Assembly (NCBI GenBank): GCA_013368375.1
Contig: JAACJP010000094.1
Location: forward strand, 1-22,389
Origin: Tricholomella constricta
Taxonomy: Eukaryota > Basidiomycota > Agaricomycetes > Agaricales > Lyophyllaceae
DNA length: 22,389 nt
Direction: 5' to 3'
A model generated the notes under the pieces. That model saw only the letters and a program-made list of their open reading frames with translations, searched no databases and was not told the origin of the DNA. Both the position numbers and the translations under genes were made by a program. This document shows, one piece after another, positions 1,983-22,389 of the stretch. The first letter of the stretch is position 1. Each line of letters begins with the position of its first letter.

Positions 1983-2140
1983 ACGGCACTCCGGAAATCC
2001 TCCACCACCGGACTCGAGCTCAAGGCTTTTCAACAATTTACGAAGCCAAGATAGCGCAGAGGGCCCGCCGTGCAGGGGGCTTCCACACCATCTTTGAGGC
2101 TGCGACCCAAGCCGCGGGGCCCGCGGGGCACGACATCAAT

Positions 2141-3425: not shown

Positions 3426-4243
3426 CCCGCTGCAGTTCTGGGTGTGCCCCAAAACAACGGCCCGCGGAGGTTCGCTGACGGCAATCCCCCGCTGCAGTGC
3501 TGGGTGTGCACCAAAACATTGACCCGCGGAGGTCCGCCCAGGGGTGGGCAATCCGCCACTGCTAGGCCCGCTGCAGTGCTGGGTGTGCCCACGGACAACG
3601 ACCCGCGGAGGTCCGCAGGGGTGGGCAACCCCCTGCTGCTAGGCCCGCTGCAGTGCTGGGTGTGCCCCAAAACAACGACCCGCGGAGGTCCGCAGATCCC
3701 CCGCTAGCCCCCCCCCCCCGATGCAGTGCTGGGTGTGCCCCAAAACAACGACCCGCGGAGGTCCGCAGGGGTGGGCAACTCCCCGCTGCTAGGCCCGCTG
3801 CAGTGCTGGGTGTGCCCCAAAACAACGACCCGCGGAGGTCCGCAGGGGTGGGCAACTCCCCGCTGCTGGCCCGCTGCAGTGCTGGGTGTGCCCCAAAACA
3901 ACGACCCGCGGAGGTCCGCAGATCCCCCGCTAGCCCCCCCCCCCCGATGCAGTGCTGGGTGTGCCCCAAAACAACGACCCGCGGAGGTCCGCAGGGGTGG
4001 GCAACCCCCCGCTGCTAGGCCCGCTGCAGTGCTGGGTGTGCCCACGGACAACGACCCGCGGAGGTCCGCAGGGGTGGGCAACCCCCTGCTGCTAGGCCCG
4101 CTGCAGTGCTGGGTGTGCCCCAAAACAACGACCTGCGGAGGTCCGCAGATCCCCCGCTAGCCCCCCCCCCCGATGCAGTGCTGGGTGTGCCCACGGACAA
4201 CAACCCGCGGAGGTCCGCAGATCCCCCGCTAGCCCCCACCCTG
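3426..4243. repeat. GC-rich minisatellite, 11 units of about 75 bp
   Basis: Units begin CCCGCTGCAGTGCTGGGTGT (or CCCGATGCAG) near 3426, 3488, 3567, 3644, 3717, 3794, 3870, 3943, 4020, 4097 and 4169, spaced 62-79 bp. Each has a PstI-like CTGCAG or GATGCAG, a centre that is either CCCCAAAACAACG or CCCACGGACAACG, the motif CCGCGGAGGTCCGC, and one of two tails (AGGGGTGGGCAAC or AGATCCCCCGCTAG plus a C run). The variant order recurs, so blocks of units were duplicated together. Unit length is mostly not a multiple of three and the long open frames shift between units, so it is not coding. Confidence 0.92.
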
Positions 4244-4286
4244 CCACCCCCACAGCACTGTATAGGCCCGCTGCAGCACCAGCGGG

Positions 4287-4457
4287 CCCGCTGGTACAGT
4301 GCCACACGGCTACATGTAGGGGCCCCGCTGGCACCGTGCCAAACGGCTACATGTAGGGGCCCCGCTGGCATTGCAGCGGCCCCGCTGCCGTCAAGTACGG
4401 TACAATGTATTGCCCCGCTGGACAGTAGGACACGCTACATTGTAGTGCCCCTACCTG
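4287..4457. repeat. Second minisatellite, units of about 36 bp
   Basis: Five units begin CCCCGCTGG or CCCCGCTGC at 4287, 4323, 4360, 4380 and 4413. The first two are almost identical and include the palindrome CTACATGTAG. Later units are shortened and diverged. The array ends abruptly at 4457, where the truncated LTR of element B begins. The 4244-4286 spacer holds GC-rich debris of both repeat types. Confidence 0.75.
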
Positions 4458-4949
4458 AGTTCTCCTCTCTGGGCGCACGGAGTACGGGATGCCGGATAGC
4501 CTGTCGACGACCACGCACGTTCGCATGCCAAGGCCCCAACCCGGCGACAACCAGACCCGATTGGAAATTAACCTACGAAAACGTCTTGCCCAGTCGTTCG
4601 CCGAAGATCCGGCCGCACCACGGAGTCCCGCCTCCAGGAGCCACGCCTGATCACGAGCTCAACCCGATCACGAATCCGACCCGACGACTCCAGCCGATCA
4701 AAAGTTCCCTTTGCCAAGTCGACGAGCGCCACACTCCTTAAAAAGGGTCGCGCGGTACCAAGCTTGGCGGCGCTTCTCTCAATAAACCAGTAAAAACACC
4801 TGCCTCGCCGGCTCGCGAAAGACGAGTCGGTTGCATAGTATAAAACATACCCATGTAGTACCTACTTCCCGCAGTGAATTACAGCCCGTATTTTCCCTCA
4901 CACTCAGAGTGAATAGCTCAAAAACCGTCGTCTCTGTCGTCTCTGCACC
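4458..4949 (+). mobile_element. 5' LTR of element B, confirmed part
   Basis: This stretch matches 16583-17077 with four substitutions and two indels (2 nt and 1 nt). It contains TTAAAAA (4738-4744), TATAAAA (4839-4845) and AATAAA (4781-4786), so promoter and polyadenylation signals are present. Compared with the 3' copy, about 180 bp of U3 are missing at its left edge, which directly abuts the minisatellite. The right end of the LTR is not fixed, because the 3' copy is cut at 17077; it probably continues toward about 5220. Confidence 0.9.
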
Positions 4950-5256
4950 GTTCTCACCGTACAAACCGTCGCCGCCATCGCAAAACTCGTAACCGCCGTC
5001 TCTGTCACCTCGTATTCGTCGCCCGAACCCGTGAGTTCTCCGTATTAACTTCGTTCGTCTCGTTGTCGCACGACCGACATCAAAGTCGCATCGCCGACCC
5101 GTTCTATCTGGAAGCGTCGTACCCCATCGCCTTCGTCGTATCACCGTCGGTTCGACTATTTACGAGTCGGATCGCCTTTTACCTACATTAAACAACCCTT
5201 ACAAAGCCTGCACACTCGCGTGTTTGGGAACTTTTAACACTTCTCGCCCCCCATAG
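4950..5256 (+). other. LTR end and leader of element B
   Basis: No gene was seen. It should contain the end of the LTR and the primer binding site, but no convincing tRNA complement was found. The TGG-containing candidate at 5225 lacks a T-loop complement. A GTGAGT donor-like site lies at 5031. The last bases, TTAAC, a pyrimidine-rich stretch and TAG at 5254-5256, form a good splice acceptor exactly where the gag frame opens. Confidence 0.4.
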
Positions 5257-5796
5257 TTGTTAGTTGTTTTGTTGTTGTGCACAGCACCTACAGGCCTACT
5301 AGCTCTATCATTCTGGAGCCCACCGCGAGGGTTTTTAAAAGCCACCGCCGAACACGCAGCTTCATTCCTCGATTTCATAAAAACCTACGACTTGGCGACC
5401 ATTCCGCCAGCAACTCGTCAAGAAGCTAAAACCCGAACCCTCCGTGCCAAAATCCGTGCTGCGTTCGGACAAGCCGACACCGACTCAGAATCGCTCTCTC
5501 CGTTCTTCCGCTCAGTAACCCCACACCGCGCAGCCCATAACAACCTCAGCCCGCTCTTCTATAGTCCCTTGTCAACACCATCGTCGCTTGCCCTGACCGA
5601 TCAAACACCGTTCCCCGAACCAACCGTTCAAACCAACCCAGCTTCCGACCCCTTTACATCGGAACCTCCTACTACCGATCAAGGAGTAGAATTTAGACTC
5701 CCGCCTCTATCGCCCACGACCCCAGAAACCTCAGATTCCCCCTCTCCGTCGTATTCCCCCTCACCGTCCCCTCTTCCGAAACCAACACTATCTATC
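5257..5796 (+). other. ATG-less N-terminal extension of element B gag
   Basis: The gag frame is open for 180 codons before the first ATG, bounded on the left by TAG 5254-5256. It predicts a hydrophobic start (VVLLLCTAPTGLLAL), an alpha-helical basic region (RQEAKTRTLRAKIRAAF) and a long Ser/Pro/Thr-rich linker ending at MAQPP. The TAG may be a splice acceptor rather than a stop. If translated, initiation needs a non-AUG codon or an upstream exon. Confidence 0.5.
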
Positions 5797-8100
5797 ATGG
5801 CACAACCACCAATCATTGTAAAACCGATGCCCGCACGCGGACAAAGCTCGGCGCCGACGTTCGTGCCCGAACGCGCGCGTGAACTGCGCCGATATTTCTC
5901 GGACTTAAATCATCTCTTCATCGAGTGTAACGTCGTAGATGAACAAGAAAAGAAAACGCACACTACGCGATACACCGACATCGATACCGCGGATCTGTGG
6001 GAGCAACTGGATGAGTTCGCAGTCGGTACCACACACGACGAGTGGCAAAAAGCGATAATGGCGCTTTACTCAGGCGCAAGCAAAGAAAGAAAGTATTCAA
6101 TGGCCGACCTCGACTACCTGATCAGAGAACGACACCGACTCGGGATCCAGTCGAATAGTGATCTCGGGGAATATTACCGACAGTTCCTTTCTGTTACCCA
6201 GTTCCTTGTCAGCGAAAACCGACTTTCGGTAAACGAACGCGACCGCCAATTCCGTCGCGCGTTCCAGTCCGATCTATGGTCAAAAATCCATCGCAGGCTC
6301 GAGATCCTAAATCCGAACCACCATCCCGATGACCCCTACGCCACTGAAACCGTCTGCGCTGCGGCTGAACATATCCTCCACGGGACAAACGCCGTCCAAC
6401 GACAGGAAGCGCCACCGGGCGCGCCCCCACAAGTTACGATCACGCCAAGCGGGTCGTTAACAGGCGCGACCAGGTCGCCTAGCACGGGACAGCCCCTCAA
6501 GTTGGAAGAGCTCTACGAAAGAATCAACCTGTTGGAACAACATATCCAACGCTTAGGACAAGACAAAGGAGGCGACGGCGGCCGACCGAACCAGTCAACT
6601 AACGACAACTGCCACTTTTGCGGTGGTGAAGGACATTACATTCCTAACTGTCCCGTACATCAAGCATACGCGACAGAAGGACGCTGCCGACGAACCGACG
6701 ACAACAAGATAGGTCTACCAAGTGGCGCGCGCATACCAGCGGGAACTCCAGGTCGATACATAAAAGACAAGCTGGACGAATGGCACAGGCGCAACCCCGG
6801 CCAAATGGCGACGGGACAGCTATCAGCGGACGCGAACCCGACCGAAAGCATGATGCTGGAAATACTACAGTTTAACGACATCACCGACCATGACCTGAAA
6901 ATCGAGGATCGCATGATCGTGTTAGAACGAGAACTCAACACCCTGCGCGCGAGGAAAGAGGTATTCGACGGGGTAGAACTTATTAGCCGCGCACCGCAAA
7001 AGCGACCTGTCACGATCGAGACCGTTCCAGACGCCGATCAACCGAGGATCGCACCGAGTAACAAATCAGCACCCGCATCGCAACCTGTCTCGGACGCGGC
7101 GATAGGCAAAGCCAAGGCTCCTCCGCCACCGTCCAACATACCTCTAACCCCCAGTACCAAGACCGACGCCACAGGCAATGCGCGCGACCAGACTCCAGTA
7201 CATCCTTTCTCTAACATTCCTGAGAACCGATACGTCCCCCCTACCACGCGAAACTTAGCCGCTACCGAGAAGGCGAAAGCCGACAGTGCGTACCGTACAC
7301 AAGCGCCCATCACAGATCCGACCAAGTCAACGACTCTGTTCGAGCGCGCACTCGACGCCACCATACCAATCACGGTTCGGGAACTCTGCGGAGTAGCACT
7401 GGAGGTTCGCGGAAAGTTTAGGGAAGCTAATACGCCGAAACGCATCATCGCTAGCAACCTTGCAACGGTGTACCAAGAAGTCCCCACGTCGGCGTTTATC
7501 GAGGAACTCGACGCGCTCCCCTGCGAATCCAACAGCGACAACGCGACGCCACCGCCCGGAGCGCTAGTCACTGGCGACATCTACGACACGTATTACCAGA
7601 CCCTACTACCCGGCGAACACCCAGACCGATTGATCGTCGCAATGGAATCACATGAACTCAGATCGATCATGATAATGGTCGACGCGAGGGAACAGATAGA
7701 AAGCATCGTCGACAGCGGATGTCAAATCATCGCAATGTTGGAAGAAGTCTGCCATGGACTGGGAGTCAAATACGACCCGACTATCGTTCTCCAGATGCAA
7801 TCAGCGAACGGAACAACCGACCCGTCGCTCGGCCTAGCAAGAAACGTACCCTGTACGATAGGAGAAGTCACGCTCTACCTACAAATGCACGTCATTCGCA
7901 ATCCTGCATACGACATACTCCTTGGTCGCCCGTTCGACGTGCTTACTTGCTCTAACGTGAAAACAAGATCCGCCGACGATACGATCATAACCATCACCGA
8001 CCCAAACACTCGAGAAGTCATCGCAATACCGACCTTCGCGCGCGGACAACGTCGCCGCCCCAAGACCGACGTAAATTTTCGTATACTCTCGAGGAAATAA
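5797..8100 (+). CDS. gag: gag-protease polyprotein of element B
   Basis: From the first in-frame ATG the product is 767 residues. An N-terminal capsid-like helical region (about 20-200, with RRYFSDLNHLF and YYRQFLSVTQFL) is followed by a Gln/Pro-rich linker and a short helical segment (LEELYERINLLEQHIQ). A zinc knuckle CHFCGGEGHYIPNC (CX2CX4HX4C) lies at 272-285. A Pro-rich linker leads to an aspartic protease with active-site IVDSGCQI (catalytic Asp639) and the later ILLGRP motif. It forms particles, packages the RNA and cleaves the polyprotein. The frame ends at TAA 8098-8100, just after the AAATTTT slip site that feeds the pol frame. No internal stop or frameshift is seen. Confidence 0.92.
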   Translation: MAQPPIIVKPMPARGQSSAPTFVPERARELRRYFSDLNHLFIECNVVDEQEKKTHTTRYTDIDTADLWEQLDEFAVGTTHDEWQKAIMALYSGASKERKYSMADLDYLIRERHRLGIQSNSDLGEYYRQFLSVTQFLVSENRLSVNERDRQFRRAFQSDLWSKIHRRLEILNPNHHPDDPYATETVCAAAEHILHGTNAVQRQEAPPGAPPQVTITPSGSLTGATRSPSTGQPLKLEELYERINLLEQHIQRLGQDKGGDGGRPNQSTNDNCHFCGGEGHYIPNCPVHQAYATEGRCRRTDDNKIGLPSGARIPAGTPGRYIKDKLDEWHRRNPGQMATGQLSADANPTESMMLEILQFNDITDHDLKIEDRMIVLERELNTLRARKEVFDGVELISRAPQKRPVTIETVPDADQPRIAPSNKSAPASQPVSDAAIGKAKAPPPPSNIPLTPSTKTDATGNARDQTPVHPFSNIPENRYVPPTTRNLAATEKAKADSAYRTQAPITDPTKSTTLFERALDATIPITVRELCGVALEVRGKFREANTPKRIIASNLATVYQEVPTSAFIEELDALPCESNSDNATPPPGALVTGDIYDTYYQTLLPGEHPDRLIVAMESHELRSIMIMVDAREQIESIVDSGCQIIAMLEEVCHGLGVKYDPTIVLQMQSANGTTDPSLGLARNVPCTIGEVTLYLQMHVIRNPAYDILLGRPFDVLTCSNVKTRSADDTIITITDPNTREVIAIPTFARGQRRRPKTDVNFRILSRK

Positions 8101-8135
8101 GTCAAGATCATGGCGATCTTGCACTCCTCCTCGAG
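8073..8135 (+). promoter_or_regulatory. -1 ribosomal frameshift signal, element B
   Basis: AAATTTT (8073-8079) is phased A AAT TTT in the gag frame. After an 8-nt spacer an outer 8-bp stem pairs CTCGAGGA (8088-8095) with TCCTCGAG (8128-8135). Inside it a 7-bp hairpin pairs 8103-8109 with 8115-8121. The gag stop TAA (8098-8100) lies inside the structure. Slipping by -1 enters the frame that is open from here into RT. Confidence 0.85.
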
Positions 8136-10262
8136 TACGACCCACTAAGCTATACCCCGACTGTCATTTCTTTCTGCGAACTATTAACCGAACTTAATAG
8201 CGACACCGCTTACGACACGCGACTAGCCTCACTCTATGTCACGGCATCCGAGCTAACTCCACCAACAATCACCGACCAAACCGCTAATACCAACCCTACC
8301 CCCCCCGAACGAACAACCCTCCGCTCTATTTTACCGAACAGCGAGCGCCACATTAACCGCCACACCCACATTCTGACCAACACCACCAACGCCTTCGCTG
8401 TGAAAATCAAAGGCGTACAAACCAAAAAGAAGTACAAGCCAGTGGCGCAGAAAGTACGATCGATTGTCGCAAGCTGTCCCGACCACTTCCGAATCGAACG
8501 CAAAATACTAGGCGATCCTCTCGCCGACATGCCGATTTTGCTTCTCAACCCACCACCGTTTCAACCCACAGGCCGCTACACGCTAGAGAGAAAAGAAGAC
8601 CTAGACCGCGAACACCCGGAATTCCTAACACCCGCTGAACGCGCCATCATGCATGATCTCATGTGTAAACAAAACCTCGTGTTCGCATGGGACGATTCCG
8701 AGCGCGGCAGCTTTAGGTCGGACTTCTTTCCACCCATCGATATTCCAGTCGTCGCACACACGCCTTGGATCGAGCGCAATATCCCCATACCTCCTGGCAT
8801 CTACGACGAAGTTTGCGACATTATCAAAACTAAGCTCGCCGCTGGCGTTTACGAACCGTCCAACTCCAGCTACCGATCGCGTTGGTTTTGCACGCTGAAG
8901 AAGAACGGCAAGTTCCACCTCGTCCATAGCCTTGAACCACTCAACCGTGTAACAATCCGACACTCGGGGGTCACTCCGATACCAGACCATGTCGCCGAAC
9001 AATTCGCCGGTCGTATTTGTGGCGCAATGTTAGACTTGTTTGTCGGCTACGACGAACGGCTAATCGCGCCTTCGTCGCGCGACCTTACTACGTTCCAAAT
9101 GCCTTTCGGCGCGTTACGCCTAGTCACCTTACCCATGGGCTGGACCAACTCCGTCCCAATCTTCCATGACGATGTCACTCACATCCTGCAACCGGAGATC
9201 CCGGACTATACGCTGCCTTATATCGATGACGCTGCTATAAAGGGACCTGCAACGTGGTATCCCGACCCAGACACAGGATTACCGAAAACACACCCCGACA
9301 ATGCCGACGTACGATTCGCGATCTGGGAATTCTTCAACGACGTCAACCGAATTCTTCAGCGCATGAAGTACTGCGGCGGCACCTTCTCCGGCAAGAAACT
9401 AATCTTATGCGCACCACAATTCAAAGTCCTCGGACACGTCTGCACGCCTGACGGTCGCATACCCGACGCGGACCGACTCACCTTACTGCGTAATTGGAAG
9501 TCGTGCGCCACCCTATCGGAGTTACGCGCGTTCTTAGGAACGGTCGGTGTGCTGAGGATTTTCGTCAAAAACTTTGCTCATTGTGCACACCACCTCGTGA
9601 AACTAACCCGCAAGGATGCAGTCTTCGAGTTTGGCCCCGACCAGATCGCAGCACAGCGCGACATCGTTGAGGCGATCGCTGAAGCTAAACCCCTCATACC
9701 CATCGACTACGCCTCAGATGACCCGGTCATCCTAGCTGTCGACACTTCACACATAGCAGTCGGATTCTACCTCTGTCAAGCCGACCCCGTCGACCGGAGA
9801 CGACGCAGGTACAACCGGTTCGGTTCCATCACACTAAACGACTGCGAATCACGATTTTCCCAACCCAAACTCGAACTTTACGGCCTATTCCGCGCGCTTG
9901 GCGCTTTACGACTGTACGTTATAGGCGTCTGCAACCTGGTCGTGGAAGTCGACGCGCGGTACATTAAAGGCATGCTCTCAAACCCCGATATCCAACCATC
10001 AGCTTCCATAAACAGGTGGATTGTATCCGTACTCATGTTCCACTTCGAGCTTGTCCACGTTAAAGGCACGTGCCACGGGCCCGATGGCCTATCCCGTCGC
10101 CCTCGTCAACCCGACGACCCGACCGACAACTACGACACGGAAGAAGCCGACTTCGAAGATTGGGTCGACCGGATGCAAGGACTCATGCACATTATTCAAC
10201 CGCTGCCACGGCCGCCGTCACCCTTGCATGTTTGTCAGATCTTCGCTATGGCCCAGATCTAA
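8079..10262 (+). CDS. pol: Reverse transcriptase-RNase H of element B
   Basis: This is read by -1 frameshift from gag and has no start codon of its own. After a variable linker comes the conserved pre-RT segment (ERHINRHTHILTN, GDPLADMPIL). RT motif A is LDLFVGYDER (Asp codon 9033). The catalytic box YIDD is at 9219-9230. The thumb/connection (FLGTVGVLRIFVKNFAHCAHHLVKLT) follows, then RNase H with AVDTSHIAVGFYLCQ (first Asp codon 9741), KLELYGLFRALGALRL and VEVDARYIKGML, then HGPDGLSRRP. It copies the genomic RNA and degrades the hybrid. It ends at TAA 10260-10262, in frame with the integrase ORF that starts 12 nt later. In related elements RT and integrase are normally continuous, so this TAA may be a nonsense change or a real division. 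Confidence 0.93.
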   Translation, partial: SYTLEEISQDHGDLALLLEYDPLSYTPTVISFCELLTELNSDTAYDTRLASLYVTASELTPPTITDQTANTNPTPPERTTLRSILPNSERHINRHTHILTNTTNAFAVKIKGVQTKKKYKPVAQKVRSIVASCPDHFRIERKILGDPLADMPILLLNPPPFQPTGRYTLERKEDLDREHPEFLTPAERAIMHDLMCKQNLVFAWDDSERGSFRSDFFPPIDIPVVAHTPWIERNIPIPPGIYDEVCDIIKTKLAAGVYEPSNSSYRSRWFCTLKKNGKFHLVHSLEPLNRVTIRHSGVTPIPDHVAEQFAGRICGAMLDLFVGYDERLIAPSSRDLTTFQMPFGALRLVTLPMGWTNSVPIFHDDVTHILQPEIPDYTLPYIDDAAIKGPATWYPDPDTGLPKTHPDNADVRFAIWEFFNDVNRILQRMKYCGGTFSGKKLILCAPQFKVLGHVCTPDGRIPDADRLTLLRNWKSCATLSELRAFLGTVGVLRIFVKNFAHCAHHLVKLTRKDAVFEFGPDQIAAQRDIVEAIAEAKPLIPIDYASDDPVILAVDTSHIAVGFYLCQADPVDRRRRRYNRFGSITLNDCESRFSQPKLELYGLFRALGALRLYVIGVCNLVVEVDARYIKGMLSNPDIQPSASINRWIVSVLMFHFELVHVKGTCHGPDGLSRRPRQPDDPTDNYDTEEADFEDWVDRMQGLMHIIQPLPRPPSPLHVCQIFAMAQI

Positions 10263-10277
10263 AGTAAGGAGGAGATG
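10262..10277 (+). promoter_or_regulatory. Internal polypurine tract at the RT/integrase junction
   Basis: AAGTAAGGAGGAGATG is identical over 16 nt to the tract at 16389-16404 that primes plus-strand DNA beside the 3' LTR. It overlaps the RT stop and includes the integrase ATG (10275). By analogy with the central PPT of lentiviruses and the second PPT of Ty1 (established), it could give a second plus-strand start. Function here is inferred. Confidence 0.6.
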
Positions 10278-12102: not shown

Positions 12103-14139
12103 TCACTCCACCCCCTCCTCCCCGTAGACGTCGCTGCCCGCGTGCAGCGGGCCCTCGTAGTTCTCATCACTGGCCTCGCCATCGGAACCGCGACCTCCGC
12201 CATCAACACCGTCGGCCGCGCACATCTGGTCGTACCGATCCTGGAGGAGGCGGACAGCGACAGTCGTGTCCGCAAACTGGTCGTTCAGAGCTGCCAAAGT
12301 AGAGCGGAGGACCTCTACCCGCGCCTCGGTTGTCTGGGACTCCTGGACAAGGCTGCGAAGTAAGGCGTGTCGCGACGACAACGCTCTCCACGTCGGCACG
12401 AGAAAAGCGTGCAACTGCAGCAGCTGTCGCCTCCCGATCACGCCCCAACCCCACCAAGTCCACATCCGCCGGTAAACACGCACCCTCGGGAATCCGCCCG
12501 CGCCGAAGATAATCCGACCCCAGGAACGGGAGAGTCTCCGCACACTCCAGCGCGATACGTGTAGCGGGAGCACCGATCCCGAACGGCCCGTCGGCCGCGT
12601 ACAATCCGCGACGCGTGTCGGTGGGCGACAAAACGATCTGCACGTCGCCGTCGGAATCCTCAACGACGGGACGCGAAATGGGGCGACGACGAGGCCGCGC
12701 ACCCGAAGCTTTGCCACCAGGAGCGACCGACGGAACGCAACCCTTCGACTGTATCTTGCACCGGGCGCAAGTGCCGCTGCCCGGTCGCTGGATACAAGTC
12801 TGACTGGCGCGAACGCAACGCTTGCACTACCAAACGAAGTTAGAAAGAAGCGCCCGACAGAGGAGCCGACCGACACCTCGTACCGGAATGTCGCGAGCGA
12901 ACCAATCCGGACACTCGACCTTGAATTCCTCTAACTTCAGCTCCCAGGCGCTGGGGACCGCGGTCATCTTCCGCTTCTTCCCTGCCTCGACGATTACGAC
13001 CGATCCCTCATCGTCCTCCCCCATCACACGCTTGCGTTTTTTGTCGGGTTCCGGGGCGGCCGACGGTGTCGCTGGCTTCGCACCTGAGAAAAGAGTTAAG
13101 CGTCGCCCGCTCACAGGACAAAACACGACGCCAGGACAGAGGGTGGACTCACCCGACCCCACGGGGCGAGCCACTGGACGGGACGTCTGTCAAAATGTAG
13201 TCAGGAGGCGAACAAGGGAATGGGCGCAACGAGGACCTACACCGGGCACCACAGGGAAAGGAAGCGCTGTCGGGCGCCCTCCGCCCGCGGAGATGTAGGC
13301 CATCTTACGCGCACCACCGCCTTTTTTGCCCTCTCCCCGCGGGCGCACCGACGACTCTCCCCCACCAACGGCGGCGTGCGATCGACCGTCCAGAGCGACT
13401 TCGGAGACGGCGCGCGAGAGAGGCGCGAGCGGGTCCCGCATAGGCTCCTCGACGTCCCGCGCCATCCGCGCGGCCATGGCGGCAACGCTCGCTGCTTCCG
13501 ACGACCGACGAAATTCCTCCACCGTACGCGAAACACCATCAGTCGCCACCTTTCTTGCATAGTAGCGCCCGCCGGAACTACGGAAGCGGTACCGTCAGCC
13601 GCGGGGCCACCAAGGTCGGGAACCACGGGGGGCACCCCGCCCGCCTCGTCGTCCACATCCATAAGACTCGTCTCCACCGATGCCGCCGACTCGGCAACGG
13701 GAGTGACCACAACCTTTGACGACGCCGCGGGCTCCTCGGGCGCCACCGACTGCGATGCGCGGCTACCGATCCCCGAACCCAGACGCTGATGCCGCTCCCG
13801 ACGTCGGCGAGTGTACTCGTCCTAAGAGGCAAACACGTCAATAAACGTAAGAACACGAACAGCAGAGCGTACCTCGGGACGAAGGCCCAGAAATTGCACA
13901 GACCACTCCTTGTCGCCCTCAATGCCGGCCCAGATCGACGCTAGGGCTTCCGCCTCGTCACCCCACACTCGGCGCTCCCCACTGGCCACCTGAGAGCGCA
14001 GGGACTCCACGCCCTCCAGAATGTCCTCCAAGAGATCAGCATGCATAGGGCGTGCCGCGTCTGCGGGAAGCGATTGCCAGTCGGCCCAGTCCTTTCCCAA
14101 GTTCTCCAAGACGAGCGAGTAGTCGGGGGCAGGGGTCAT
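12103..14139 (-). CDS. Antisense gene 1: Zn(II)2Cys6-type DNA-binding protein
   Basis: It is antisense to element B. Exons and introns on the minus strand: exon 14139-13873; intron 13872-13822 (GTACGC/TTAG); exon from 13821 to 13241; intron 13240-13187 (CTGAC branch); exon 13186-13153; intron 13152-13084 (GTGAGT/CTCAG); exon 13083-12884; intron 12883-12827 (CTAAC branch); exon 12826-12103. Phases agree at these introns. The N-terminus has a domain with DWADWQSLPAD. Two basic signals, DKKRKRV and KKRKM, suggest nuclear import. CX2CX6CX8CX2CX6C at 12826-12737 is the GAL4-type signature. A coiled coil (LLRSLVQESQTTEARVEVL) and an acidic tail follow. Two frame breaks remain: a -1 step around 13600-13550 (missed intron or indel) and an apparent GA loss at 12384-12388. 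It could be nearly intact or a young pseudogene. Confidence 0.75.
12737..12826 (-). other. Zn(II)2Cys6 cluster of antisense gene 1
   Basis: Six cysteines spaced CX2CX6CX8CX2CX6C (CKRCVRASQTC, then CARCKIQSKGC) match the fungal binuclear zinc cluster, CX2CX6CX5-12CX2CX6-8C. The exon begins at the first Cys codon, directly after a TAG acceptor, as in the paralogue at 15609. The family typically binds CGG triplets. Confidence 0.8.
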
Positions 14140-14167
14140 TGCGAGTCAACAGGAAGAGAGGGAGATG

Positions 14168-14184
14168 AAAAAAAAAAAAAAAAT
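14168..14184. repeat. A17 homopolymer upstream of antisense gene 1
   Basis: Seventeen A on the plus strand lie 29 bp upstream of the ATG of antisense gene 1. Poly(dA:dT) tracts exclude nucleosomes in fungal promoters, so this could be part of the antisense promoter. It could also be simple slippage. Confidence 0.6.
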
Positions 14185-14255
14185 TGAACCAAAACAAGGC
14201 GCCAAAAATTTTTCGCACCGCCACCTCCTCCCACGCCACACACGCGCGACGCCTA

Positions 14256-14291
14256 GACTGAGGACAGTCAGCAGTTCAAGTAAGGAGGAGA
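14256..14291 (+). promoter_or_regulatory. Second polypurine tract with upstream hairpin
   Basis: This 36-nt block matches 16367-16402 at 33 positions. It contains GACTGAGGACAGTC, a 5-bp hairpin, and AAGTAAGGAGGAGA, a copy of the 3' polypurine tract. It lies upstream of antisense gene 1, as the other copy lies upstream of antisense gene 2. The gene and the tract were therefore duplicated together. Confidence 0.75.
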
Positions 14292-14939
14292 GAGGAGACG
14301 TGGCGCACACATGGCGCCCACATGGACCAACAAGTCACATGACTCAAACAGACCATACATCCTTACAAACAGTGGCGCAAACGATCGGACTCACCTTCAC
14401 AAAACGAGACGAACACGACCGACCCGACGCCGACGTCGCCACCGCTCCCACCCTCGGCAGCACTGTCGCCTCCGCCACCATCGCCCCTGAAAAAACTCCC
14501 ACTCCTGTCGGGGTCCATAGCCCCACCCTCTACACGGCCCCCGAAGATCTCGCGCACTAACTCGAAATTGTCGACCCGATAAGCACAGGATCCCCTGTAG
14601 CGACCCGAGGGGTGTCCCGACTTGGAAATTGCAGAAAGGCACGACGGGCAGACAAAGCGCGACCCATGCGTGACACAACCGACAATTGGCGACACATAGC
14701 TCGAGTCGTGCAGGTCTTCATGACGAGCGGCGATTATCTCCCAAGTAACCGGCACGGAAATGGCCTACGTACGGCGGCCGACACAATCAACCCGACAACG
14801 GAAGCGGCGACACAGACGACTGCCTTGCGACACCTAAGAACAAAACGCGAGCTACGGGAGGACGACCACAATTTTAGGGTCCATACGACTAAAAACAAGT
14901 ACACAAGGAATACCCGACCAAACTGCGCAACCCGGAGCC
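14292..14939. other. Spacer between antisense genes 1 and 2
   Basis: No gene is supported. On the minus strand an open stretch (about 14755-14400) would encode a Cys-containing peptide with FVCPSCLSAISKSG, but it lacks an ATG, a clear partner exon or a recognised domain. It may be decayed 3' sequence of the duplicated module. The frame of antisense gene 2 can also be read on to 14734. Confidence 0.4.
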
Positions 14940-16239
14940 CTAGACCGACGAACCCTCGCTGCCGCCGTCGCTCATGCCACCGTCGGCGCCGATCGCACTG
15001 CCGCTGCCCCCACTGATCACGCCGCCCCACGGGAGGCCCAAGAACTAACTCTGCACGCCGGGCCCGGAGCAAATCGAGGGCGGTCGATGTAGCTACGACC
15101 TGTTGGTAAAGCTGACGGGCCGACGAACGCATGATCTCCTGGCGTGATTCGAGGACCTGAGCCTCCTGGACCAAAGTACGCAGGAAAACGGTGCGTGCCG
15201 ATAACGCCCGATCGACATCCGCAAGACCGAACCGCGGAATAACCGACAGCGGCTGGGTGAAGCCCAGGCCCCGCAAATCTTCGTTATGAAGGAGGTCTTC
15301 CGGGCGAAGCACCGGACCCTGATAAAGAAGACCCGCGCTCAGGTCCGCCGAGCCTGCAGAACGAGTCACAGCAAGGCGCTGGGCGGCTCTCGCCAGATCG
15401 GGGGAACGGACCTCAGCGAACGGCAAGGGTGGCGTGCACGCGTCACAAAAGTGTCCCTCTCCCGAGCACGACACAAAGTGGTGCGGAGCGGGCAGAAACG
15501 ACCCCACCTCGTTCGTCTCACATCGCTTCGACTGAATCTCACAAACCGCGCAAGCGTCGATCCCGAGGCGCTGAACGCAGTCCAACGCGTAGCTCACGCA
15601 ACGGTCGCACTAGCCAATAAATGAGCGAGGGAGCAAGGTCGCACGAGAACCGACGGCTTACCGCTTCACTACGAGTGTAATGCTCGGGGTACTCCTCCTT
15701 AAATTCCTCAAGACGTGTCGCCCACAAATCACGTCGTCTCCGTTGCGCTGCCAATACCGACTCCCCAGAGATCTCGACCACTGACTCTTCCTCATCCGCG
15801 TCTCCAACAGAAGGGGCACACACACGCCAAACGACGGGCTCTGCCTCTTCTTCAGCTGAGGCGGCGCGCATACGCTCCCGAGCGACCGTCTCTCGGCGGG
15901 GTAATCAGACTACCAACTAGCGCGTTAGTACCCTGCAGGAACGACCAAATAACCAAAGAACGAACGCACACTCGGTTGTAGGACCGCGAACCGCTCGGAC
16001 TATTCGGAGTCGGACTTGATCGTAGACCATACGTTGAACAATGCCTCTTCCTCGTCGCGCCACATCCAACGCCAGGGGCTAGCTGTCGGCGACCTAAGCA
16101 CTTCGACGCTGTTTGACAAGTATTGCAGTATGCGAGTGTGTTCGTAACGAGGCGAGTCGGCCGACAGCGATTGCCATTCCCCCCAGTCTCGGTCCAAATT
16201 GCGGAGAATACGACGAAGATCGACAGGAGGTCCCGACAT
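14940..16239 (-). pseudogene. Antisense gene 2: decayed Zn(II)2Cys6 paralogue
   Basis: It is a paralogue of antisense gene 1. ATG 16239 starts MSGPPVDLRRIL and the shared DWGEWQSLSAD block. A TAG at 16002-16000 replaces a Trp found in the paralogue. The first donor is no longer recognisable and exon 2 needs a 1-nt correction near 15900. Exon 2 (LWATRLEEFKEEYPEHY) ends at 15662; intron 15661-15610 (GTAAGC/GCTAG) is clear. Exon 3 opens with CX2CX6CX8CX2CX6C (15609-15520), then a second Cys/His group (HHFVSCSGEGHFCDAC) and a coiled coil (FLRTLVQEAQVLESRQEIM). A further frame change at a G run near 15026 would give a Gly/Ser-rich end at TAG 14942-14940, resembling the paralogue's tail. Unlike gene 1, no nuclear signal was seen. 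Confidence 0.75.
15520..15609 (-). other. Zn(II)2Cys6 cluster of antisense gene 2
   Basis: CDRCVSYALDC and CAVCEIQSKRC reproduce the same cysteine spacing as antisense gene 1, with the IQSK motif kept between them. The cluster is intact although the gene around it is broken. Confidence 0.8.
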
Positions 16240-16284: not shown

Positions 16285-16366
16285 TGTTGCCAGCGCATCG
16301 GCACCGCCACTCCCTCCTATCTCAGCCCCTTGCAAGACGTATGCCCCCTGACAGACGCACGGGACC

Positions 16367-16402
16367 GACTGAGGACAGTCGGTATTTCAAGTAAGGAGGA
16401 GA
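16367..16402 (+). promoter_or_regulatory. 3' polypurine tract of element B
   Basis: The hairpin GACTGAGGACAGTC and the purine tract AAGTAAGGAGGAGA lie directly before the TG that opens the 3' LTR (16403 or 16406). This is the standard site for plus-strand priming. Copies lie at 10262 and 14278. Confidence 0.8.
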
Positions 16403-17077
16403 TGATGAGCACCGTCCCGCGCTGTACACCGAACCAGCCCATAATACGGACATCAACCGCTGCGCCACGACGAACACGGTACCGAACACGACCGAAGCAC
16501 TACACGACCGACCGACTACACGACCGACCACCCGACAATACGACCGACGCACCGACCGAGAGACGAGGTAACTAGAAACACCAGTTCTCCTCTCTGGGCG
16601 CACGGAGTACGGGACGCCGGATAGCCTGTCGACGACCACGCACGTTCGCATGCCAAGGCCCCAACCTGGCGACAACCAGACCCGATTGGAAATTAACCTA
16701 CGAAAACGTCTTGCCCAGTCGTTCGCCGAAGATCCGGCCGCACCACGGAGTCCCGCCTCCAGGAGCCACGCCTGATCACGAGCTCAACCCGATCACGAAT
16801 CCGACCCGATGACTCCAGCCGATCAAAAGTTCCCTTTGCCAAGTCGACGAGCGCCACACTCCTTAAAAAGGGTCGCGCGCGGTACCAAGCTTGGCGGCGC
16901 TTCTCTCAATAAACCAGTAAAAACACCTGCCTCGCCGGCTCGCGAAAGACGAGTCGGTTGCATAGTATAAAACATACCCATGTAGTACCTACTTCCCGCA
17001 GTGAATTACAGCCCGTATTTTCCCTCACACTCAGAGTGAATAGCTCAAAAAACCGTTGTCTCTGTCGTCTCTGCACC
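16403..17077 (+). mobile_element. 3' LTR of element B, interrupted
   Basis: It starts TGATGAGCACC after the polypurine tract. The first 180 bp (U3) are absent from the 5' copy and contain clustered CGACCGAC motifs (about 16500-16560). From 16583 on it matches the 5' LTR. It stops at 17077, where element C begins. The remainder should follow C's 3' LTR outside the window. Confidence 0.85.
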
Positions 17078-17143: not shown

Positions 17144-17237
17144 CCCGACTGACCGATCGCGAATCCCGACCCCGACTGACAATCGCGATCCCGACCCCGA
17201 CTGACCAATCGCGATCCCGACCCCGACGCTCTGACCC
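17144..17237 (+). repeat. U3 tandem repeat of element C
   Basis: Three units of 25-27 bp begin CCCGACTGAC at 17144, 17171 and 17196, with a partial fourth at 17222. Each contains TCGCGA and CCCGACC. Repeats in U3 often act as enhancers; that role is inferred. Confidence 0.8.
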
Positions 17238-17474
17238 AAGCGTCGGTGTATATACTTACACACTTCCTGTCGTTTCCCATCTCTCCCTGCGCGCGCCCGA
17301 CGCCGATCCCGACCACCCGACATCCCGACGTCGGCTGTCCCGCCTCATGCCCGTACCCTGAGCCACGAGGATCGGACAGCATCGGGAACGTGTCCATACA
17401 CGCGCCGCACACCATTCGTTATTATTACATTGTACAGTACACTCTGGAGGACCGGCCCTCACGTCCTACACTCG

Positions 17475-17519
17475 TATATAGTCGACCCTCTGGCATCGGG
17501 GAATCCTTTACACTATTCT
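17475..17519 (+). promoter_or_regulatory. TATA box and predicted start of element C RNA
   Basis: TATATA (17475-17480) lies 33 nt before TTACACTATTCT (17508-17519). That segment is perfectly complementary to the site just past the LTR, as expected if the RNA begins near 17508 and primes its own reverse transcription. Confidence 0.7.
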
Positions 17520-17600
17520 CTTCGGATTCCCCTTTGCCAGGTGAGCCTTACCTACATTCGCTACTGTACATCAATATAACTTCGGATTCCCCTTTGCCAG
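17520..17600 (+). repeat. 21-bp direct repeat spaced 60 bp
   Basis: An identical 21-bp sequence containing GGATTCCCCTTTGCCAG occurs at 17520-17540 and 17580-17600. The first copy is followed by GTGAGC and the second ends in CCAG, so the 60 bp between (17541-17600) has intron-like ends. Confidence 0.85.
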
Positions 17601-17637
17601 TGCGACCCAGCTCCGCTCCGAAGGTCGCCCTAACAGC

Positions 17638-17649
17638 AGAATAGTGTAA
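17638..17649 (+). other. Self-primer binding site of element C
   Basis: AGAATAGTGTAA lies 2 nt past the LTR and is the exact complement of 17508-17519. No TGG for a tRNA 3' end is present here. This is the arrangement of Tf1, in which the 5' end of the mRNA primes cDNA synthesis. Confidence 0.75.
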
Positions 17650-17761
17650 CCTGAGACCCGACGAAGCTGACCGATCAGCCTCCGCGCCGAAACACGTGTC
17701 TGCTACACGCAACCCGTTTCAGCGCGCGCCCGCTCCGATCGTCGCCCAGTCCCGTCTCGAG

Positions 17762-18978
17762 ATGTCCGACTTCGGTGAATTCGACACGCCTCCGTCTCCT
17801 GCTGCGCTCACGCCAGAGGAACGACTGGCAAGCCTCAAAACTGCAATGTCGGCTCTCTCCCAATCCAACACCACCAACTCGGCCACCATGGACCGCATCG
17901 CCGCTCTTTTAGATACCATCGTTTTGGGGAACCCCTCCGCTGCCTCCCCAGCAGCACCTACGACCCCCGCGACGCCGGCGCAGCCCCTGCCGACGTCCCC
18001 TCCCCCTCCGCGGTCGGGATCGCACACTCGGCCGTCGCCCCCTCCTGTTTACGACGGCGCTCGATCGGGCGGCCGCGCCTTCTGGAACGCGCGTGCCAGC
18101 TTTACTTCTCCCTGAGCGTCGGACAGTTCGCCGACGACCATGCCCGAATCAGCTGGGTGTTGTCGTACATGCAACACGGTCGCGCCGCCGACTTTGTCGG
18201 TCGGGTCTTTCAGTATGGGTCGGTAAAGCGCGCGTTCCCGACCTGGAAGGACTTCGCGTCGAACTTCGAGAAGGAGTTCTTCCTGTTCGACGAAGTCGCC
18301 GACGCTGCGCTCACCCTTGAGTCGACAGCGTACTTCCAGAATGGGCGCACCATCGACGAGTACATCGACTCGTTCAAGGCCCTGTGGATCAAGGCCGATT
18401 ACCCAGACGGCCGCCATCTGGTCCTCAAATTCCGTCGGGGCATGGACCCGAAGCTCTCAAGGAGACTTGGGAGCATCACCAGGGTCGGCCCGACGACTCT
18501 AAGATCGAGGACTGGCTAGCAATCGCCCGCTCGCAGGACTTCATCATGAGGACCGAGGAGGACTTCCACCGTCGGCCCCGACAGTCCTGACTGCGAGTCG
18601 CCCGACTGCCCCGTCCCGATGCCGGTGGTCGCGCCCATGCTCCGATGGCGACCCACTGCCCCTCCGACCGCTCCCGCTCGTGTGTCGGCACCGGCGCACT
18701 TTATCAACGCGCCCGTGACGCCGTCTCTCCCCCCAGGTGTCCCTATGGACATCGATCGGCTCCGCGGACGTCCTGTTCAGGACGACACCTGTCGTCGGTG
18801 CAAGCAGCCGGGGCACTTCTGGCGTGACTGCCCAAAGCGCTTCGACCTGCGCCACATCATGCCAGAGGAGCTGGATGAGCTGATCATGCAGCTGTTGGCG
18901 CGAAAGGACGCGATCCCGGCTGACCCGACGTCAGAGTCGGCCGACCCGACCATCTTGGACACAGAGGAGGATTTTTAG
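17762..18978 (+). pseudogene. gag: gag of element C, frameshifted
   Basis: The first in-frame ATG (17762) opens MSDFGEFDTPPSP, a helical region (LKTAMSALSQ) and a Pro-rich linker. Near 18082 one base is missing, and the capsid-like part (RISWVLSYMQHGRAADF, WIKADYPDGRHLVLKF) continues in another frame. A second shift lies near 18470 (then KIEDWLAIARSQDFIM) and a third near 18560-18590. The zinc knuckle CRRCKQPGHFWRDC (CX2CX4HX4C) starts at 18790, and the frame ends at TAG 18976-18978. The upstream frame is open back to the self-primer site but has no ATG. Confidence 0.85.
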
Positions 18979-19011
18979 TCGCACAACGGGTGAAAAGTAC
19001 GCCCCCGTTGT
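18969..19011 (+). promoter_or_regulatory. -1 ribosomal frameshift signal, element C
   Basis: GGATTTT (18969-18975) is phased G GAT TTT in the gag frame, directly before the stop TAG. After a 7-nt spacer an 8-bp stem pairs ACAACGGG (18983-18990) with CCCGTTGT (19004-19011) around a 13-nt loop. Slippage enters the pol frame. GGAUUUU is a known natural slip site in a plant virus (red clover necrotic mosaic virus). Confidence 0.75.
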
Positions 19012-22000
19012 CTAGTCGTAATCGGTTCGCCCCCCTATCTGTAGAGTACCCCAATATACTTAATATTGCTGCTACTTCTACGGGTGAACCAATCGACGAA
19101 GACGTACAACCCTCTCACGACCAACCGCCATCTCCTTCGGTCACTCCGACCAATCTGACCGTACCGTCGCGTCGCGGACTACCACGCTGGGAAAAGCGAC
19201 TGCCCCGTCGCTTCGTGATCGCCGCCTCCCCCGACTCCTTATCCCTGTCGCTCAAGGTCGAGCTCGAGACCACCGACACCCAAGAGACGCATTCGCTCAC
19301 TGCCCTCGTTGACAGTGGGGCTTCGGCCTGCTTCATCAACACTGCCTTCGTTGAAAAGCACAAGCTGAAGACGCGACGGCTGAATCGCCCGACGCGTGCC
19401 TACAATGTTGATGGAACCCCTAACGAAGCCGGCGCCATCGAATATGTCGTGGACGCAGTTTTACGTTACGACGGACACTCCGAGCGAGCTCTGTTCGCGG
19501 TCGCGGGTATTGGGAAGCAGGATCTCATTCTCGGATTCACCTGGCTTCGAGACCACAACCCCGACATTGATTGGGCGACGGGAAAGGTGAAAATGAGTCG
19601 AGCACCGACACGCTGCGACACCTGCAAGGTTGAAGTCAAGGAGGATCGTCGTTCACGCACCAAATTGCGAGCCGCCATTCGGGCTTGTCGGGCGGAAGGA
19701 ATCCCGACAGTCGAGCCCGACCTGCGAGCCCCGACCAGTCCCTACGTCGAGGACGACTCCGACACCGACGAGTTCCTCCCCTACACCCCAATCCTGGAGG
19801 AACCCGATCCAGAGTCGGGCGACTTCCTTACGGAGACCTTCCTGAATGGTGATCGCATCTTTGCGACTGCGATCCACCCTCCTCCGACCGAAGTGCACAT
19901 CCGTGCCAGTCAGACAACATCACAGCGACTCGCTGAAGCGTATGCTGCGGACTCTGTGCCCAAGTCATTCCGCGACGCTGTCCCGACGCATCTCCATGAC
20001 TTTGAAGACGTCTTCTCCAAGGTCGCGTTTGACGAGCTTCCCGATCGCAAACAGTGGGACCATGCGATCGAATTGGAACCAGGCGCGTCGCCGACTGGCA
20101 CGAAGGTCTACCCTCTGTCGCCCGCAGAGCAAGTCGAACTCGATGTTCCTCAGGGAGAACCTCGAGTCGGGTCGGATCCGACCGTCGAAGTCGCCTATGG
20201 CGTCGCCGGTGTTCTTCATCAAGAAGAAGGACGGGTCGCTCCGACTGGTGCAGGACTTGGACGCTCAACGCGATTACGGTGAAGAATCGATACCCGCTGC
20301 CCCTCATTAGCGAACTGGTGAATAACCTTCGCGGCGCGCGGTACTTCACCAAGTTGGACGTCCGATGGGGGTACAACAATGTTCGGATCAAGGAAGGCGA
20401 CGAGTGGAAGGCAGCGTTTCGGACGAACCGCGGTCTCTTCGAGCCGCTCGTCATGTTCTTCGGCCTCACAAATAGCCCCGCCACATTCCAGACCATGATG
20501 AATGATATCTTCCGTGATCTGATCGCCGAAGGTGTTGTTTGCGTGTACCTCGACAACATCTTGATTTATACCAAGACTCTAGAGGAACACCGTCGGGTCG
20601 CGCGACTGGTACTGGACCGACTCCGCGAACATCAGCTGTTCTTAAAGCCCGAGAAATGCGAATTTGAACGGACCAAAATCGAGTATCTTGGCTGATCATT
20701 TCGCAAGGGCAAGCGGAGATGGACCCGGTGAAGGTCGCAGGAGTGTTGGAATGGCCAGCACCGAAGAACAAGAAGGAAGTGCAAGCGTTCCTAGGCTTCA
20801 CTAACTTCTACCGACGGTTCATCCAGGACTTCTCGCATCACGCCCGACCCCTGTTCGATCTGACGGGCAAGGACGTCGCCTGGCGGTGGGGAGAGTCGGA
20901 GCAGTCGGCCTTTGACCTCCTGAAGTCTGCAATCACGTCGCGACCGGTGCTCAAGTTCCCCAACGACGACCGACCGTACCGCATCGAAGCTGACTCGTCC
21001 GACTTCGCGACGGGCGCGGTCCTGTCGCAAGAGTCGCCGTCCGATGGCAAGTGGCACCCGGTCGTGTTCTACTCGAAGAGCTTGAATGCAGTTGAGCGGA
21101 ACTACGAGATCCACAACAAGGAGATGCTGGCGATCATCCGGTCTCTGGAGGAGTGGCGACACTTCGTAGAAGGCACTAAGCACAAGGTGGAGATCTGGAC
21201 CGACCACAAGAACCTCGAGTACTTCCTCACCGCGAAGAAACTCAATCGGCGTCAAGCCTGATGGTCGCTCTATCTCGCCAACTTCGACTTTGCCCTCCAC
21301 CACCGTCCTGGACGCAGCATGGGCAAACCCGACGCGCTATCACGACGCGCCGATCATGGCGACGGAAGCGGCGACAATGCCGACATCGTGCTCCTCAAGC
21401 CCGAGTTCTTCGCGATTCGCGCGACCGAGGGTCTTGTACTGGTCGGAGAGGAGGACGATGTGGTAAAGGCGATTCGCAAGGGCAATCGCGACGGCGCACA
21501 AGAAGATGCAGTCGCTAAGGCGGCTCAACTGGTCAAGGCTTCCAAGGTCGCCGGCCGCTCCCTACGCTTCGGCGAGTGGGGGGAGGAAAGCGGTCTGCTC
21601 ACGTTCCGTGGACGGATCTATGTCCCGAATGTTCCTGACCTTCGCCGACGCATCGTGGAGCAGCATCACGACTCCAAGGTCGCTGGTCACCCGGGTCGCT
21701 GGAAAACATTAGAGCTGGTGTCGCGCAACTACTGGTGGCCCCAGATGTCGCGCTTCATTGGTTCATACACCAGTACCTGCGACATGTGCTTGCGCACAAA
21801 ACCCCGCCGCCAACTCCCCGTCGGACAGCTGCAGCCGCTCCCAATTCCCGAAGGCCGATGGAATGTCGTACCGGTGGACTTCATCACCGAACTCCCCGAG
21901 TCCAACGGCCACGACGCGATCATGAATGTCGTGGATTCAGTCGGAAAGCGCGCGCACTTCATCGCATCGCATACGACCTGTTCGGCCTTGGGAACTGCCA

Positions 22001-22060
22001 ACCTCTACCGTCGCCACGTCTGGAAGCTACACGGTCTCCCCGACGCATTTGTCTCCGATC
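18975..22060 (+). pseudogene. pol: pol of element C (PR-RT-RH-INT), broken
   Basis: Protease: LVDSGASACF (Asp codon 19311) and LILGFTWL. RT: frame shifts near 20140 and 20260 flank [18 protein letters not shown]. Motif A is [10 protein letters not shown] (Asp codon 20357). The catalytic box reads YLDN (codons 20546-20557) where YLDD is expected. A further 1-nt loss near 20693 follows EYLG. RNase H (EADSSDFATGAVLSQ, IWTDHKNLEYF) ends at TGA 21259-21261, where Arg (CGA) is expected. The frame then continues into integrase with an HHCC domain (VEQHHD to CDMC) and Asp codons 21877 and 22057. The reading frame is cut one base after the second, at the edge of element D. Confidence 0.9.
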
Positions 22061-22389
22061 TGTCACGAACGTCCCCAACGACCACCCCTAAAGTCACACC
22101 CACTACGCTTTCCCACGCACGTCCGCCGTACATATATGACACCACTTTCTTTTCGGACACCTCACCTCGATATTACCTACTGTTAAGACTAGTTCTCGAT
22201 TCTCGTTCTCGTTTCTCTCTCTCTCTCTCAATCTATTTGGCTTCACGCCCGTATCACTTGAGCTCTTTCGTTCGAATCAGCCCCGGTGAACACCTCCGTC
22301 AACGCTCACGACCTCCGAATACTCCTTCGTAGGTCGTCTTCCTTGACGGACGTCAGGCCTGTCCGCTTCGGTGTTCCAGAGTAACTCTG
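22061..22389 (+). mobile_element. Partial LTR of element D, inserted in C integrase
   Basis: Similarity to integrase stops at 22060 and a new sequence starts TGTCACGAACG, a typical LTR opening. It has an AT-rich CATATATG (about 22130) and a CT microsatellite (about 22210-22228), and no coding potential. No end, primer site or second copy is visible, so the orientation is a guess. Confidence 0.6.

Follow-up and report, generated by a model that had tools for sequence, protein, structure and literature searches.

Two conserved antisense genes for predicted zinc-cluster/coiled-coil proteins in a Ty3-type retrotransposon of Tricholomella constricta

The DNA analysed here (the window: all 22,389 nucleotides of contig JAACJP010000094.1, assembly GCA_013368375.1, of Tricholomella constricta) is the entire contig C93 of the genome that was searched (44,086,424 bases, 118 contigs). 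It carries element B, a Ty3-type long terminal repeat (LTR) retrotransposon in which a pair of paralogous genes on the opposite strand separates pol from the 3′ LTR (Table 1). A preliminary description made from the letters of the window alone had placed two such genes between the integrase open reading frame (ORF) and the 3′ LTR, and this is where they were found. It had also called them paralogues, and the comparison agreed, with a tblastx E value of 1.4e-30, first exons that are 45% identical and zinc regions that are 36% identical over 74 columns. The cysteine spacing CX2CX6CX8CX2CX6C, likewise described beforehand, is exact in both genes, and in each of them an AG immediately precedes the first Cys, with which the zinc exon begins. 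Both genes are thus present in the window, but neither is intact there, since alignment to other copies reveals two gaps that break the frame of gene 1, and gene 2 contains small frameshifts and, in its first exon, a TAG in frame.

Comparison of ten copies resolved gene 1 into five exons and four GT-AG introns (in the window 51, 54, 69 and 57 nt long). GT and AG are conserved in 40/40 of these introns while the donors vary (GTACGC, GTGAGT, GTGCGT and others), and the zinc exon begins at the first Cys directly behind AG in all 15 loci displayed. Two other placements were rejected: a frame change within exon 2, tried as an intron, proved on alignment with other copies to be a gap in the window copy, and a downstream CAG, tried as the acceptor of intron 2, is not conserved by other copies. 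Gene 1 is open through its terminal stop, over 605 amino acids (aa), in the copies L012 and L014; internal stops are absent from the aligned part of L015, L016 and L018, L013 has one internal stop, L011 is stop-free with a change of frame near its end, and L019 and L020 share with the window the presence of frameshifts. A public T. constricta protein (P0001, D9615_010527), which matches the translated related gene L054 without a difference over stretches of 215 and 29 residues, has intron 4 removed at a GT and an AG identical to those predicted; its annotation joins exons 4 and 5 of a gene 1 from class E (the classes are treated below) to an unrelated DUF6534 protein, a fusion that is probably a gene-model artefact. 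Intron 3 is 69 nt long in 13 of the 15 loci scanned, 63 nt in L053 and 70 nt in the class B copy L015; in L056 the scan chose another GT (65 nt), and a visible GTAAGT gives 69 nt by eye. Its 3′ end carries a branch-like CTNAY or similar, then NAG. Because it is in frame, free of stops in the frame of its neighbours and conserved in translation (F[SC]P..G.PLT-like) across gene 1 classes, intron 3 may be an exonic intron, spliced out in some transcripts and coding in others.

Gene 2 has three exons in L014, the third of which begins at the first Cys. Its zinc-exon stretch is absent from L015, L018, L019 and L020, and in the first three of these the second exon is open over 193 aa without a zinc motif. 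In class E elements such as that on C7 the match to gene 2 is restricted to the coiled-coil part, so that loss of the zinc exon, as in the lineage of those four copies, is likely there too.

Other copies of element B were surveyed through 82 scored integrase matches among 728 candidates; all copy counts are minimum values, and nearly identical copies were counted as well. A zinc exon lies on the opposite strand within 1.4 kb 3′ of the integrase in 75/82 copies, and on the same strand in 0/82, while two opposite-strand first exons lie within 5.2 kb of the integrase in 57/82. The 7 integrase copies without a match within 5.2 kb include C6:1442524, which is 2.6 kb from a contig end, and a distant integrase (48%). 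The elements on C92, C93, C102 and C103 are mutually 99-100% alike and those on C93 and C102 have the same 5′ LTR truncation, for which reason these four may be duplicates of one insertion. With exon 5 of a class A gene 1 as query, 152 matches were obtained, the best 150 of them ranging from 100% down to 31% identity; among these best 150 of 152, an internal stop is found in 10 and none in 140.

Selection was assessed by the ratio of non-synonymous to synonymous change (dN/dS, NG86) on 16 exon 5 sequences, using the 31 pairs with dS <1.5 and leaving aside the saturated pairs across classes C, D and E. The ratio is 0.15 for A against A (1 pair), 0.15-0.23 for A against B (10 pairs), 0.11-0.18 within C (10 pairs) and 0.17-0.43 within B, where the higher end comes from very close pairs. 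In exon 1 of gene 1 it is at most 0.19 where defined. Three pairs were compared in the zinc exon of gene 2, of which two gave 0.17 and 0.18 and one had no synonymous change. The zinc exon of gene 1 is therefore under purifying selection. The preliminary description had proposed to look for the same genes at the same place in other copies and for a dN/dS below 1, and both tests came out in its favour: the genes recur in place and strand beside 75 of the 82 integrases, and the values between classes A and B are far from neutral. Although both window genes and some other copies are broken, as would be expected of functionless passengers decaying by chance, that explanation is already refuted for gene 1 by the purifying selection and by the 140 stop-free zinc exons, and we give it practically no chance. 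It is also very unlikely, in our judgement, that the antisense transcript itself is the agent, through double-stranded RNA or transcriptional interference, with the proteins secondary. The sense genomic RNA does run across the antisense genes in its 3′ part, and passages of PMC7264820 discuss such RNA effects for plant elements, but a role of the RNA only would leave both the dN/dS of 0.11-0.23 and the conserved cysteines unexplained.

Regarding the proteins themselves, the Zn(II)2Cys6 family (PF00172) is defined by the spacing CX2CX6CX5-12CX2CX6-8C, which the exon 5 spacing fits, and this spacing is conserved in 16/16 aligned exon 5 sequences. Zn(II)2Cys6 proteins carry a basic run between cysteines 2 and 3. 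By eye, no such run is present at that place in the aligned zinc exons, which read VRASQT, ADASVD or VDSGVD there, with RKQGVS and SKQGVA as the nearest approaches; basic residues sit between cysteines 5 and 6. A coiled coil behind the zinc motif is predicted, as it had been beforehand, and is supported by a heptad pattern in 11/11 sequences, with at most 41 of 1000 shuffles equally strong. The nuclear localisation signals claimed for gene 1 correspond to two basic runs recognised by eye in exon 4 and stay putative. The antisense products are accordingly described here as predicted nuclear zinc-cluster/coiled-coil proteins. The structure model of the N-terminal exon is all-helical (predicted local distance difference test score, pLDDT, 77; predicted template modelling score, pTM, 0.67), and a fold search of the PDB with it returned 89 matches, none at E <= 0.001 and the best at E 1.1. 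A homology search with the 605-aa product of L014 gene 1 gave 0 relatives among 7989 candidates, and a profile search with gene 1 exons gave a single protein match, from T. constricta, whereas a search with the reverse transcriptase (RT) region gave 1378 relatives at E <= 1e-20; the antisense genes would therefore either have a narrow distribution or suffer from poor annotation and masking. Among viral contigs there were 12 pattern matches, none of them a relative.

Table 1. Features of element B in the window, with positions in the window.
Feature	Position	Strand	Basis or remark
Gene 1 exon 1, ATG start, predicted all-helical N-terminal domain	13873..14139	-	translation, structure model
Gene 1 intron 1	13822..13872	-	copy alignment
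Gene 1 exon 2, frameshifting gap in window copy	13241..13821	-	copy alignment
Gene 1 intron 2	13187..13240	-	copy alignment
Gene 1 exon 3	13153..13186	-	copy alignment
Gene 1 intron 3 of 69 nt, without stops and in frame, conserved when translated	13084..13152	-	copy alignment
Gene 1 exon 4, basic runs KKRKR...GKKRKM (putative nuclear localisation signals)	12884..13083	-	copy alignment
Gene 1 intron 4	12827..12883	-	copy alignment; junction identical in public model P0001
Gene 1 exon 5, zinc cluster from first Cys (12826), predicted coiled coil; frameshifted in window	12103..12826	-	copy alignment
Gene 2 exon 1, paralogue of the first exon of gene 1; window copy has a TAG in frame	15970..16239	-	
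Gene 2 intron 1	15910..15969	-	by inspection
Gene 2 exon 2, start frameshifted in window copy	15662..15909	-	copy comparison
Gene 2 intron 2	15610..15661	-	by inspection
Gene 2 exon 3, zinc cluster from first Cys (15609), predicted coiled coil; late frame shifts in window; lower limit approximate	14941..15609	-	
Inverted repeat ahead of gene 1	14253..14272	.	
Inverted repeat ACCGACTG-AGGA-CAGTCGGT ahead of gene 2	16364..16383	.	
Polypurine tract copy 1 (AAGTAAGGAGGAGA), inside pol at RNase H/integrase junction	10262..10275	+	
Polypurine tract copy 2	14278..14291	+	
Polypurine tract copy 3, immediately 5′ of 3′ LTR	16389..16402	+	
5′ LTR	4458..4924	+	homologous to 3′ LTR positions 181-649; first 180 bp unmatched
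gag ORF, zinc knuckle, aspartyl protease at end	5257..8100	+	protease E ~1e-4 (under Pfam cut-off), knuckle E 0.06
Reverse transcriptase/RNase H ORF, stops at TAA ahead of integrase ORF	7956..10262	+	RT_RNaseH E 2.8e-10
Integrase ORF, 525 aa	10263..11840	+	Integrase_H2C2 E 2.8e-16
3′ LTR, 649 bp	16403..17051	+	repeat comparison

Ahead of each antisense gene lies a short module in which an inverted repeat adjoins a polypurine tract, 5 nt before it in 16/16 sites counted. These sites come from classes A-F; a 17th stretch, L064, has no tract and was excluded. The arms of the repeat pair in 111/128 cells over the 16 sites, against 2/96 to 24/80 when the arms are slid, and one inner arm pair is changed on both sides, from C-G to T-A, in 2 sites. 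CCG-N12-CGG is found in 12 of the 16, that is, in 7/7 ahead of gene 2 and in 5/9 ahead of gene 1. The pattern CCGACTGRGGRCAGTCGG has 109 matches in the genome and its reversed control 0, and of the 100 matches listed (109 in total), 96 precede an antisense first exon by 103-421 bp, most of them by 130-170 bp. CGG triplets are bound by Zn(II)2Cys6 proteins, and CCG and CGG are the half-sites of Gal4-type proteins; on this ground the CCG-N12-CGG repeat is likely an operator and is taken as the candidate binding site.

By sequence divergence, gene 1 falls into anciently diverged classes that are carried on similar pol, LTR and gene 2. The window gene 1 belongs to class A, and the zinc proteins diverge down to ~33% identity. 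Mosaicism was tested by contrasts of synonymous distance (pS) with bootstrap; an approximately unbiased (AU) test on 9 sequences was uninformative, as both constraints fit one unrooted tree. The class A gene 1 of L024/L014 (on C34) and that of L026/L012 (on C66) are separated in exon 5 by a pS of 0.115 (confidence interval 0.073-0.160), and despite this common gene 1 the integrases of C34 and C66 are separated by 0.342 (0.279-0.400). The C34 integrase is nearer that of L050, an element with a class C gene 1 (pS 0.198, 0.143-0.257), for which exon 5 is saturated (0.734, 0.668-0.798). Sliding identity between L014 and L012 is 23-35% in the post-pol spacer (1601-1900), 87-100% over gene 1 (1901-4400) and 52-59% past 4400, while between L014 and the class C element L044 it is 80-90% across most of the spacer and 33-46% from 1901 on. 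Against class C and D upstream stretches, the identity of L014 jumps where the inverted repeat lies, at 4446, and reaches 92-97%. L013 and L014 have two sets of inverted repeat and tract each: a decayed class A set (L014:4166, with two mismatches) and the intact set of the recipient (L014:4477). A single gene 2 type, with a first exon 98-100% like that of C34, accompanies gene 1 classes A, C and D (58 three-part elements). As shown by these comparisons, the gene 1 cassette of one subfamily comes from another lineage, and its edges can be mapped. Co-variation of the LTR with gene 1 class was unsupported in its simple form, the LTRs of other families being 79-85% like those of the window regardless of gene 1. 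Recombination between LTR retrotransposon copies is itself reportedly known, as the titles of PMC5668417 and PMC1950507 indicate.

We propose that the two conserved antisense genes, which are predicted to be spliced, encode predicted nuclear zinc-cluster/coiled-coil proteins that likely bind the adjacent inverted repeats and likely regulate transcription at the 3′ end of the element, and we put this proposal, taken as a whole, at just short of an even chance. The genes are antisense, so their introns survive reverse transcription of the sense RNA and spliced genes can persist in a retroelement. After splicing, the proteins would enter the nucleus, pair via their coiled coils and bind the CCG-N12-CGG repeat; binding would then set antisense transcription that opposes the sense genomic RNA, and element expression would thereby be limited or timed. 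Specificity would reside in gene 1, the variable part, with gene 2 as a partner that changes less; where gene 2 has lost its zinc exon, as in one lineage, its product would still pair but make no contact with DNA. Between the two roles offered by the preliminary description, that of an element-encoded regulator is the better one, and mobile cargo is less apt because the antisense genes behave like permanent components of it. A further step, which we consider unlikely though worth stating, is that gene 1 is one of several ancient, interchangeable regulators of self-recognition, and that the cassette, bounded by the internal polypurine-tract module, moves between pol-LTR chassis so that classes coexist and amplify in one nucleus.

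Several observations weigh against this regulatory proposal. The Zn(II)2Cys6 label given to the genes beforehand holds for the cysteine spacing, but membership in the Pfam family is not established, the gathering cut-off of Pfam Zn_clus having been reached by none of the sequences scanned (one of 8 gave E 0.038 and the window exons gave no match). A sequence search of the PDB returned no relative of the zinc proteins, and the structure model of the zinc region, 62 residues from 2 sequences, has a pLDDT of 54 and is unusable. Selection on gene 2 is less clear in exon 1 (dN/dS 0.06-0.66), and in the second exon three very close class B pairs gave 0.69-2.09 from few changes, which is uninformative. 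Four of the nine gene 1 sites are without CCG..CGG, and the gene 1 sites of class A, including the window, and class B have ends of the CTA/CTG..CAG type. The core of the inverted repeat is absent from the window LTRs and occurs only at the two antisense-gene sites, so that control of the sense promoter would be indirect. Moreover, the repeat keeps one sequence while the zinc proteins diverge, with which class-specific recognition fits poorly.

The position of the repeat also counts against it being an operator: because it adjoins polypurine tracts, it may serve reverse transcription instead. On this alternative, repeat and tract together would be a signal for reverse transcription or recombination, giving extra plus-strand starts, and the antisense proteins would act elsewhere, for example on chromatin or in integration. 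AAGTAAGGAGGAGA matches the genome 204 times, the reversed pattern once. On the 14 contigs that were fully listed (ten C19 rows are excluded from the tally), which hold 37 integrase copies, 79 of its 90 matches belong to these copies, with the tract at site 1 in 26, at site 2 in 27 and at site 3 in 24. The constant 5-nt spacing, the exact 14-mer at all three places in 17 of the 37 copies, and the cassette edge of L014, which falls just before such a module while the donor module persists as a decayed remnant, all speak for a signal of this kind. However, the tract inside pol has no inverted repeat, and the repeat is thus unnecessary for every tract, and the distance from repeat to antisense ATG is kept; we regard the alternative as rather unlikely. 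As a separate observation, the pol-internal tract at 10262-10275 is identical to that before the 3′ LTR, and it recalls the central polypurine tract of lentiviruses.

The class diversity of gene 1 bears on another explanation, in which the antisense proteins target the host, either countering silencing or reprogramming host genes, and the diversity reflects an arms race or a choice of host targets. The ancient classes and the prediction of nuclear proteins of a DNA-binding type are what it would lead one to expect. Selection within and between near classes is purifying and not diversifying, however, and of the candidate sites listed (100), the same 96 are inside elements, so that targeting of the host appears quite unlikely to us.

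The remainder of element B is that of a Ty3/gypsy retrotransposon, with LTRs flanking gag-pol (the window 5′ LTR being matched only from position 181) and the Ty3 order of protease (under the Pfam cut-off), RNase H and integrase zinc-binding domain. No Pfam match to the RT core was obtained in the window RT ORF; PF00078 is precomputed for several relatives. A TAA at 10260-10262 splits the RNase H and integrase frames, and the 525-aa integrase frame is found in C93, C102 and C66, while many other copies have a single long frame of up to 1305 aa. One partial relative of the RT region, at 79% identity, is named Sphagnurus paluster; S. paluster and T. constricta both belong to the Lyophyllaceae. 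In L016 and L017 a second gag-pol stretch, ~90% like window 4501-8839, directly follows the 3′ LTR, which makes this LTR common to two elements. Just 5′ of the truncated 5′ LTR, at window 3426-4241, a 73-nt GC-rich unit stands in eleven direct copies. Elsewhere in the window, an ORF at 2145-3089 (+) contains an acidic 19-residue repeat (57-nt period, 2564-2868) and is flanked by two retroelement stretches, and additional gag-like or gag-pol frames at 85-1803 (-) and 17180-22332 (+) apparently belong to other retroelements, the latter reaching almost to the contig end with their 3′ part out of view.

To our knowledge, no function has been established for the antisense accessory genes of LTR retrotransposons. 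The present genome brings together dozens of related open-frame copies, several ancient classes, a natural cassette exchange and a short candidate binding site per gene, and the function of antisense retrotransposon genes is thereby open to direct binding and reporter tests. Antisense genes at this position of an element are already known from Retand, Grande and the brtn gene of Boty. The preliminary description knew of no fungal Ty3 family with such cargo, and in this it needs correction, as an antisense gene in a fungal Ty3 element has a precedent: Zhao et al. are said to have reported, in 2011, Boty-like elements of Botrytis with the additional antisense gene brtn. Passages of PMC4227169 and PMC5987419 present brtn as an extra antisense gene in fungal Ty3 Boty-like elements, and the title is cited in PMC7264820 and PMC8365987. 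These passages name one gene and no zinc motif, and the comparison with element B is by description and not by sequence. A full-text literature search, with subscription papers mostly outside it, found no zinc-cluster antisense genes described for fungal Ty3 elements.

Among viruses, HBZ of human T-lymphotropic virus type 1 (HTLV-1) is spliced and is a basic leucine zipper (bZIP) protein, whereas the genes of element B are of the zinc-cysteine type. The two are alike as antisense nuclear regulators, proven or supposed, from the 3′ end of a retroelement (HBZ is mentioned in PMC11963269). Closer in place are the plant Ty3 elements Retand, Grande and RIRE2, for which passages of PMC11963269 and PMC7264820 describe antisense ORFs between pol and the 3′ LTR, present in nearly all recent copies and with a product suspected to be a DNA-binding regulator; for gene23 of Grande, a nuclear product and an antisense promoter of its own are given (PMC7264820). 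The Retand group is reported there to encode TRP28 (PF04195), unlike element B, and PF04195 was not reported in Pfam scans of the window exons and 8 exon sequences. The word 'intron' is missing from the main texts of PMC11963269 and PMC7264820, whereas the genes of element B are predicted to bear introns. Element B thus differs from the Retand group in its zinc-cysteine motif, its two tandem paralogues, their introns, the exchangeable classes, and the inverted repeat and polypurine tract. What is new here are the gene 1 classes, the exchanged cassette with mapped edges, the inverted repeat and tract ahead of both genes, and the loss of the gene 2 zinc exon. In the immunity regions of lambdoid phages, diverse regulator cassettes sit on a common replication chassis; the comparison with element B is an analogy in working only and implies no homology. 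If gene 1 is type-specific, it would be a retrotransposon counterpart of phage immunity or of incompatibility groups, and if regulation is indeed by class, a principle known to date from phages and plasmids would extend to retroelements.

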